From the NCBI GenBank assembly GCA_029667085.1, contig JARUHJ010000007.1:62001-126000 (forward strand): a stretch of 64,000 bases of DNA, read 5' to 3'. The first letter of the stretch is position 1. Each line of letters begins with the position of its first letter. This document shows positions 18,685 through 20,668 of the stretch, piece after piece. The DNA comes from Deltaproteobacteria bacterium IMCC39524. Its GTDB lineage: Bacteria > Desulfobacterota > Desulfuromonadia > Desulfuromonadales > BM103. The notes beneath the pieces were generated by a model. It worked only from the letters and a program-made list of their open reading frames with translations, was not told the origin of the DNA and did not search any database. The translations under genes and the position numbers were made by a program.

Positions 18685-19011
18685 CTATTTGCTTTGTTCG
18701 ACCATGTAGGTTGTTGCAGAGGTTACCTCTTCGTCTGTTAACGCACTGTTGCCGCCTTTGGCTGGCATGAATCCGCTTGATCCTTGAAAACCTTTGATCG
18801 CCAGCGCGGCCATCGCTTCTTCCCCTTTGTTAATACGGTCCTGCCAGGCGGCTTTGTCGCCGGTTTTGGGCGCGCCTGCAACGCCGCTGGCATGACAGGG
18901 CGCGCAAAAGTTCATATAGATGCCTTGCCCCTGCGTGTTGTCGGCAACAACGTTTGTGAAAAATACAAAGGGAAGTGCGAGCATTAAAAGCAGGGTGAAG
19001 ATTTTTTTCAT
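18685..19011 (-). CDS. periplasmic monohaem cytochrome c (c5-like)
   Basis: 108 aa with a cleavable signal peptide (MKKIFTLLLMLALPFVFFTNVVA). One haem site CAPCH near residue 36, and a likely axial methionine in SSGFMPAKGG. The pattern GxxxYxxxCAPCH...GFMPAKGG fits small class I cytochromes of the c5 type that carry electrons in the periplasm. It is a single gene, with a hairpin after it and a 580-bp gene-free stretch upstream. Its redox partner cannot be told. Confidence 0.92.
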   Translation of the reverse strand: MKKIFTLLLMLALPFVFFTNVVADNTQGQGIYMNFCAPCHASGVAGAPKTGDKAAWQDRINKGEEAMAALAIKGFQGSSGFMPAKGGNSALTDEEVTSATTYMVEQSK

Positions 19012-19595
19012 AATGAACCCTTCCTTCTGTTGTGTCTCTGGCCTGCAAAGAGAGCCGCAGGTGCTAGTTGTTAATCCGGCTTGTTATGATTCCTTGCTGT
19101 TCTGCTTGGGGGCTGACAATGGCGATATGCTGCAGAGTCGTGCTCCCCACATGTTGTGCACTGTTACATTTTTGGTTTGTTTGAAGTGCCCTCATACCAT
19201 TGCTGAACGAAAGGATCTATGACCCAAGGGGTTTCATATTAAATGAGTGCCTTTGAGAGGCGCAAGTTAAATTTTAAGCAGAATGGAGTAGTCATCAGTC
19301 TTCTTTCGTCTCAAGAAGAATAAATTTTTGTCCGGAGACGACGGGTTCTGCTCCTGATCCAGGCAAGCATTATTGGTTTTTATTAATAAAAAGTTAAAAA
19401 TAATAATGTAAAACAGAGCAAAAAACACCATTTCCCAACCATGAATAGGCGAATACCTCTTAAAAACGGATAGTTGCAAATATTAACAAAGTATGAATTT
19501 TTTTTAATTTGTTAGTTGACATGAAAGTTATTTAATGTTAAAAGTTTAATCAAGAGTAAGGAGCAACGTTAAAACCCAACCGACAGGAGGTCGTC
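19012..19595. other. gene-poor region upstream of the cytochrome and small-protein genes
   Basis: 584 bp, AT-rich in its second half. No convincing gene: a possible 70-codon minus-strand frame (19267-19479) has no clear ribosome site or family. The right end holds a candidate promoter for the tandem small proteins. No riboswitch was recognised. Confidence 0.6.
19516..19544 (+). promoter_or_regulatory. candidate sigma-70 promoter for the tandem small proteins
   Basis: A consensus TTGACA (19516-19521) is followed after 17 nt by TAAAAG (19539-19544), about 50 nt before the first small-protein ATG. The -35 is perfect and the -10 weak. Confidence 0.45.
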
Positions 19596-19742
19596 ATGAA
19601 AACTCAAAGCAATTTTATCGATATCGTAAAAAGTAGTTACATGGTTCTGATCATTGCCATGCTCGGCATCTTTGCTTTTATCTCTGCTGTATTGATCGCC
19701 TGGCCTGCTCTCGCTTACCTCGGTGCGAAGCTGTTTAACTAG
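19596..19742 (+). CDS. 48-aa single-pass membrane protein, copy 1 of tandem pair
   Basis: ATG 19596 with a strong CAGGAGG 8 nt upstream; 48 codons ending TAG. The N-terminal 14 residues are polar (MKTQSNFIDIVKSS), residues 15-44 are hydrophobic, and the end is AYLGAKLFN. It shares the invariant core AVLIAWPALAYLGAK with copy 2, 57 nt downstream. In that 15-codon core 9 codons differ between copies and all changes are synonymous, which is strong evidence of translation and protein-level selection. I do not recognise the family. A membrane-complex subunit or small stress protein is possible; a type I toxin is less likely given two intact well-translated copies. Confidence 0.85.
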   Translation: MKTQSNFIDIVKSSYMVLIIAMLGIFAFISAVLIAWPALAYLGAKLFN

Positions 19743-19799
19743 GATCAGACTTTAACAACCAACACTCTCAGCAAAGAGAGTTTCCCCAGGAGAGATATC

Positions 19800-19946
19800 A
19801 TGAGAAGCGCAGCCAATATCGTTAGTAATGTTAAGGCCAGTTACACCATCGCAGTTATGGGCGTCCTCGGAGTTTTTGCTTTTGTCTCGGCCGTACTGAT
19901 TGCCTGGCCGGCACTCGCCTACCTTGGCGCCAAGATGTTTAACTAG
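19800..19946 (+). CDS. 48-aa single-pass membrane protein, copy 2 of tandem pair
   Basis: ATG 19800 with CAGGAGAG 7 nt upstream; 48 codons ending TAG. Polar start MRSAANIVSNVKASY, hydrophobic stretch to about residue 44, end AYLGAKMFN. It matches copy 1 at 30 of 48 positions or better and has the same length and termini. The pair is followed by an intrinsic terminator, so the two form a compact bicistronic unit. No homologue is known to me and no partner gene lies on the same strand nearby. Confidence 0.85.
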   Translation: MRSAANIVSNVKASYTIAVMGVLGVFAFVSAVLIAWPALAYLGAKMFN

Positions 19947-19964
19947 GAATAAACCAAATAATCG

Positions 19965-19998
19965 AAAAAGCCCCGCGAGTTGCGGGGCTTTTTGTTTT
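19965..19998 (+). terminator. intrinsic terminator of the small-protein pair
   Basis: Perfect stem AAAAAGCCCCGC (19965-19976) with GCGGGGCTTTTT (19982-19993), then more T. It lies 18 nt after copy 2. Confidence 0.92.
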
Positions 19999-20203: not shown

Positions 20204-20668
20204 TCAGCCGCTCATGCCAAGCATGGCTTTGTAGTCTTCTTCAACCAGTTCAAGGTGGTTATGAGTTGATGTAGCGTTCGCCAGGTAGACCCTCGAAATG
20301 TCTGGGTCATCAATCTGGGCGGCCATCTCGCGGAGGGTTTTCTCCAGGGCCTCTTCCTGATCAATCGCCAGCTCCAGCGCCTTGCGCTCGTCAAAATCTT
20401 GGACTAACAAGCTCTGCAGGTTCTTCCACCACGAGGAATCCGTGTTTGGTGGTGCATTCATGAATTCCTGAAAAGAAGGAATGTCATCGCCGGAGTAGAT
20501 TCTATAAAAAGATTCGGCATGTTGATATTCTTCACGAGCAAGGATCTCAAATGTCTGCCGAGCTCTATCTTCAGCCATACGTTCCGCGCCATACTTGTAG
20601 TAATCCATGGCGTCCTTTTCCGTCTGGATGGAGTCCTTGATCGCTTTTTGCACGTCAATGATTCCCAT
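20204..20668 (-). CDS. rubrerythrin-like ferritin-family protein, 154 aa
   Basis: A four-helix bundle protein without the rubredoxin tail of classical rubrerythrin. Helix 1 carries Glu in TEKDAMDYY, helix 2 has the di-iron motif EEYQHAE (ExxH), helix 3 has ERKALELAIDQEEALE. In helix 4 the usual ExxH seems to be TxxH (STHNHLE), shared with the paralogue at 57247. These proteins are linked to peroxide reduction and iron handling in anaerobes. The site change leaves the chemistry uncertain. The N-terminal start follows GAGGTTTCAATC. Single gene with terminator. Confidence 0.88.
   Translation of the reverse strand: MGIIDVQKAIKDSIQTEKDAMDYYKYGAERMAEDRARQTFEILAREEYQHAESFYRIYSGDDIPSFQEFMNAPPNTDSSWWKNLQSLLVQDFDERKALELAIDQEEALEKTLREMAAQIDDPDISRVYLANATSTHNHLELVEEDYKAMLGMSG

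Follow-up and report, generated by a model that had tools for sequence, protein, structure and literature searches.

Tandem pairs of small predicted membrane proteins in Desulfuromonadales and their genomic association with quinol-oxidizing cytochrome genes

A tandem gene pair and its protein family

The window analyzed here, i.e., a stretch of 64,000 nucleotides from the genome of Deltaproteobacteria bacterium IMCC39524 (order Desulfuromonadales; contig JARUHJ010000007.1, positions 62,001 to 126,000), harbors two adjacent forward-strand genes for proteins of 48 amino acids, hereafter A (19596..19742) and B (19800..19946), the latter a paralogue of the former. Each gene has its own Shine-Dalgarno sequence (AGGAGG at 19585..19590 for A and AGGAG at 19788..19792 for B), the two open reading frames (ORFs) are spaced by 57 bases, and one intrinsic terminator on the same strand (19965..19993; 13-pair stem, loop of 3, T-rich tail) lies 3' of both, which agrees in every element with the tandem 48-codon genes, strong ribosome sites and joint terminator described in a first-pass annotation of this DNA. 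That annotation also drew attention to a core common to both proteins (AVLIAWPALAYLGAK), in which nine of 15 codons were said to differ by synonymous changes alone, and a recount returned the same figures (9 synonymous, 0 non-synonymous). A single hydrophobic helix had been claimed as well, and one membrane helix is indeed predicted, the span being placed by hydrophobicity in both proteins. The AlphaFold2 model of protein A consists of helices at residues 2-34 and 36-47 with a break at Trp36-Pro37 (mean predicted local distance difference test, pLDDT, 83.3; predicted template modelling score, pTM, 0.44).

Homologous open frames were recovered with one query (E <= 0.01) from 45 of the 136 genomes of the order and from all 22 genomes of the organism's own family, and a profile of 34 sequences (E <= 0.001) raised the count to 68 of the 277 class genomes, of which 48 belong to the order (of 136) and 20 do not, so the homologues that the annotation proposed to look for in related genomes do exist. 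A phylum-wide sample gave matches in 6/17 members of the class versus 1/378 others, and this one exception (G201, E 9.7e-5), situated inside a frame of 752 amino acids, was taken as a chance match and dropped; locus L174 (E 3e-4), being unlike the family, was dropped on the same grounds and is not among the 89 loci considered below. As delimited by these searches, the family is found only in the class that holds Desulfuromonadales. Conservation across the 34 rows reaches at least 90% at three positions (Gly24, Pro37 and Leu39). For the loci from the homologue search plus both copies of the own genome, the ratio of non-synonymous to synonymous differences (pN/pS) was 0.22 among 32 distinct first genes and 0.19 among 26 distinct second genes of 48 codons, and the check on the corresponding substitution rates (dN/dS) that had been suggested gave median pairwise values of 0.11 and 0.10, respectively, pairs with saturated dS being omitted (83 of 496 for first genes, 14 of 325 for second genes). 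Given these low ratios, the members of the family are selected proteins and, as judged from substitution patterns, A and B are real genes under strong purifying, protein-level selection.

The view that the family is an unknown one also held. When 34 first-type and 14 second-type members (see below) were scanned, no Pfam-A or NCBIfam family reached its curated cut-off; there were weak matches only at E <= 0.1 (best E 0.006-0.09), scattered over unrelated families, and the sole match printed with a score (member 1) was far under its cut-off. A scan of PDB sequences likewise returned no fitting family, and we therefore rejected a known family as the identity of A and B after these three scans. 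Excerpts of PMC6295460, PMC4914508 and PMC2725144 contain no mention of a small-protein family, no account of one was found in the open-access literature (the only literature searched), and these small gene pairs are apparently undescribed.

Pairing extends well beyond the window. Of the 89 loci, 65 were called as having two or more small hydrophobic ORFs side by side, with ribosome-like sites; when the second ORF of L095, which looks spurious, is discounted, about 64 tandem pairs or arrays remain (L104 and L147 each have one extra ORF that likewise appears spurious). In other families, the partner frequently belongs to a second type that ends in W-S in place of W-P-A-L; the two types are homologous (profile comparison 95.3%, E 2e-8) and alternate in arrays at L097 and L167, and the second type gave matches in 30 of the 277 genomes of the class, with cross-matches at first-type places accounting for six of them. 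The retention of two unlike members as neighbors across such divergence suggests a joint action. As a separate observation, a 127-residue ORF adjoining a gene with a Nitro_FeMo-Co domain (L092:8296-8676, forward strand) starts with MRPENSVSKPLSGVYR, which resembles the leaders of adjacent small membrane proteins (MRVENSKSKPVSDKYL), as if the start of a small gene had been joined to an unrelated body.

Neighbors of the pair in the window and in other genomes

Within the window, the pair is flanked by a small monoheme cytochrome c gene (18685-19011) and a rubrerythrin-like gene (20204-20668), the latter recurring at 12 loci of the own family. The reported placement between iron and cytochrome genes is thus correct, but both genes are on the strand opposite to the pair and hence neither is co-transcribed with it, for which reason we rejected both as partners. 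The suggestion that the immediate neighbors might be partners found no support in the window, and the informative neighbors are those of a second copy and of other genomes.

This second copy lies on contig C5 of the own genome, where the stretch 19493..19949 (forward strand) is repeated in a gap-free local alignment of 457 bases that runs from 103 bases 5' of the first gene to just beyond the second stop. The C5 pair is located, on the strand opposite to both neighbors (c0 and c1), between an NrfD-like gene (Pfam NrfD, E 7e-36) and an ImcH-like gene with five CXXCH motifs, one CXXXCH motif and a NapC/NirT match just under the cut-off, and further genes in the vicinity encode a 4Fe-4S protein and proteins with four hemes, with eight hemes (NapC/NirT type) and with nine hemes (620 residues). 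The nine-heme gene is putatively labelled CbcL-like and the divergent NapC/NirT-matching gene ImcH-like, on the basis of gene layout plus excerpts of PMC4914508, which give DSOUD_0207 and DSOUD_0214 as the Desulfuromonas soudanensis homologues of ImcH and CbcL; in G521, the ImcH-like and CbcL-like genes are in the same relation as these two homologues. Both CbcL and ImcH are described in excerpts of PMC6295460 and PMC4914508 as inner-membrane quinol oxidases.

Such genes are the recurrent large neighbors of the small-protein family, and the small proteins themselves differ from them in having no CXXCH and in being encoded as separate genes. In 30 of 45 genomes of the order, a CbcL- or ImcH-like gene lies no more than 3.5 kb from a copy (by match coordinates, leaving out three order genomes found by profile alone). 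The distance to ImcH-like genes is 192-556 bases in 14 genomes and that to CbcL-like genes is 258-285 bases in G267, G307, G453 and G474. Compared with 40 control regions of the same genomes, whose positions were set by hand, the surrounding 5 kb contained a Cbc-cluster type gene at 45/89 loci versus 0/40 (Fisher p 7e-10) and an ORF with at least four CXXCH at 44/89 versus 1/40 (Fisher p 2e-8); the heme count is the fairer test, because Cbc-type clusters were defined from the family loci, and related loci are not independent in either comparison. In families f5 and f6 (which we infer to be Geobacteraceae and kin), the usual order at a cbcL locus is small pair, gene of ca. 250 codons, CbcL-like gene, often a small membrane gene, and sigma-54 activator. 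The simple ORF caller sometimes picks antisense ORFs, so that neighbor labels are missing in places (e.g., L154, L240 and L242), and L154 is counted as a cbcL locus by its sigma-54-activator neighbor only.

Three further features of these neighborhoods were seen. The CbcL-like gene of the own genome adjoins atpB- and atpE-like genes (L053:2-1400), as is also the case in L092 and L094. A small membrane protein of ca. 75-90 residues, probably with two helices, without a Pfam match and unrelated to the A/B family, is repeatedly encoded directly beside CbcL-like genes (L053:838-1074, reverse strand, and homologues). Finally, a partial first-gene match of 21 residues (G401:C40:74539-74601, reverse strand; E 0.0099) lies 230 bases from an ImcH-like gene and is possibly the remnant of a copy at the ImcH-like site (site II, see below).

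The recurrence of membrane-cytochrome genes as larger neighbors in many genomes, i.e., the kind of conserved synteny that the first-pass annotation had proposed to look for, favors its idea of membrane-complex subunits, although half of the loci are elsewhere. Several observations weigh against a role tied to these cytochromes. No multiheme gene lies within 5 kb in 45 of the 89 cases, among which is the locus in the window, and copies distant from such cytochrome genes have unrelated neighbors (read by eye). Furthermore, of the order's 136 genomes, 91 have CbcL-like genes and only 48 have the family (by profile), and no similar small gene was seen in ten CbcL regions from genomes without a family match, which together rule out an obligate CbcL subunit.

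The same observations could be accommodated by free-standing small membrane regulators that tune some membrane protein by energy state, with copy number and promoter type setting the dose and the respiratory locus being one of several places that encode the pair. MgrB and AcrZ are small membrane regulators of this manner, unlike A and B in sequence. For such a role speak the loci away from multiheme genes and the presence of CbcL in genomes without the family; the enrichment beside quinol-oxidase genes and the tight spacing to ImcH-like and CbcL-like genes speak against it. We regard it as the main rival, a possibility to be taken seriously albeit rather unlikely.

Exchange between copies and putative promoters

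Both the window site with its rubrerythrin-like gene (site I) and the ImcH-like site (site II) are syntenic across genomes. In G400 and G408, the site I and site II copies share 100% and 99% identity, respectively, and group by genome, the concatenated genes reaching at most 0.85-0.89 to site I or II of other genomes, and concerted evolution is clearly at work there and perhaps also in G413. The G000 pair groups by genome (100/96) as well; by gene, only the first is homogenized (0.99 over its first 100 bases), and the second shows 0.932 between sites, below the likeness to G410 or to site I of G405 (0.946). Other copies within a genome are 79-91% alike and, given that homogenization is seen in some genomes and none between the sites of G405 and G411, exchange between copies is, so far as these comparisons indicate, only occasional. 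The solo genes at site II of L034 and L036 begin like the first gene and end mostly like the second, the pattern expected of a deletion between repeats; this pattern is less clean in the solo gene of L033, and no clear break was seen in L032 and L041. Tandem duplications of recent origin take in the entire pair in L025 (5559-7087 and 8354-9882; 99.9% over 1.5 kb) and in L030 (5375-7368; 82% over 1 kb). In L016, L021, L029 and L036, a shared repeat-like sequence (ATGGCG..GCAAAAAGT.CGCCCTAC.GCGTTGCAGCG) takes the place of the usual terminator region after the last small gene's stop codon.

Because copies of the unit recur within genomes (identity up to 100% over 531 bases) and several contigs end in it, it might be thought of as a selfish mobile repeat with two ORFs as incidental cargo. 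This we consider highly improbable, as sites I and II are syntenic across genomes, the proteins are under purifying selection, and tblastn (E <= 0.01, one query each) found no match among 72,556 records of plasmids and 50,697 of phages; no search aimed at end repeats or target duplications was made.

Upstream of A, a promoter-like element on the forward strand (19516..19544) combines TTGACA (19516-19521), a 17-base spacer and TGTTAAAAG (19536-19544; extended -10 reading), and would presumably serve as the -35/-10 promoter of a sigma-70-type polymerase; the tool scan that reported the terminator did not report it. The motif (TTGACAT followed 15-17 bases on by TAATGTTA, T/G and T/C changes allowed) precedes all 31 own-family first-gene units having 130 nucleotides upstream. 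A relaxed pattern had a single match in 976 kb of control sequence on both strands, and a stricter pattern (up to 2 mismatches) found two sites in the own genome, both before the two copies.

Small hydrophobic proteins in tandem and multicopy units also call to mind the type I toxins Ldr, Ibs and Hok, whose peptides are restrained by RNA. The A/B unit departs from these in its exposed ribosome sites, conserved forward promoter and respiratory synteny; the Rfam scan around the unit revealed no antitoxin or other family above the gathering cut-off, and inside the unit there is no minus-strand promoter-like site (antisense RNA was not otherwise tested), one such site being located upstream of it at 19397-19369. 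A toxin role thus seems improbable. An RNA element was rejected too, the eight sub-threshold Rfam matches being mostly over the terminator hairpin.

In f5 and f6, the pairs away from cbcL carry a different element 60-118 bases before the first gene, TTGGCA[CT]G with a TGT/TGC partner, which we take to be a sigma-54-type site. It was found at 13 of these 16 pairs, the remaining three retaining its first half (by eye), and at 0/12 cbcL loci and nowhere in controls, several of the 16 pairs being one site seen in different genomes; most cbcL loci encode a sigma-54 activator. This distribution, with the site at copies away from cbcL and at none beside it, is a further point in favor of free-standing regulators.

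A possible role at the quinone pool

On balance, we consider it the likeliest reading, at about even odds, that the pairs are accessory subunits or assembly factors of inner-membrane quinol-oxidizing cytochromes. A and B would be co-transcribed, paralogous single-span proteins of the inner membrane, each with a short N-terminus, a membrane helix, a conserved W-P kink and a short C-terminal helix, and would pair with each other, probably as a heteromer. As small accessory subunits or assembly/stability factors, they may associate with a CbcL-like b/c cytochrome, an ImcH-like NapC/NirT cytochrome or an NrfD/4Fe-4S/multiheme complex, partners at which extracellular electron transfer begins. The copy in the window could then provide an extra dose of the respiratory-cluster pair from the same promoter.

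A precedent for such an arrangement is CydX, a 37-residue subunit of cytochrome bd oxidase that, according to excerpts of PMC4325964, is likewise very short and single-span, encoded with a quinol oxidase, often unannotated and poor in invariant residues. The 48-residue A and B are predicted to be of the short single-span type that a CydX-like small subunit would need, and, as for encoding together with an oxidase, 45 of 89 loci have a Cbc-type neighbor inside 5 kb, the window site not being one of them, and the C5 copy runs on the strand opposite to c0 and c1. The two systems differ in that the A/B family forms paralogue pairs at several loci per genome and in that CydX is encoded with cydAB, the A/B family with CbcL/ImcH/NrfD-type cytochrome clusters; no sequence relation to CydX emerged, as no Pfam or NCBIfam family reached its cut-off, a direct comparison with CydX not having been run.

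More tentatively, and with the odds against it, we speculate that the paralogues form a structural subunit pair of the quinol-oxidizing complexes with which extracellular electron transfer begins in Desulfuromonadales and their sister order, and that its dose is set by additional copies with sigma-54-type or strong sigma-70-type promoters, which would thereby help to choose the inner-membrane redox branch. These proteins touch upon how iron- and electrode-respiring bacteria pass electrons out of the quinone pool and why different inner-membrane cytochromes serve different redox potentials. A conserved small pair beside such cytochromes, short enough for annotation to miss, could be a missing subunit or regulator.
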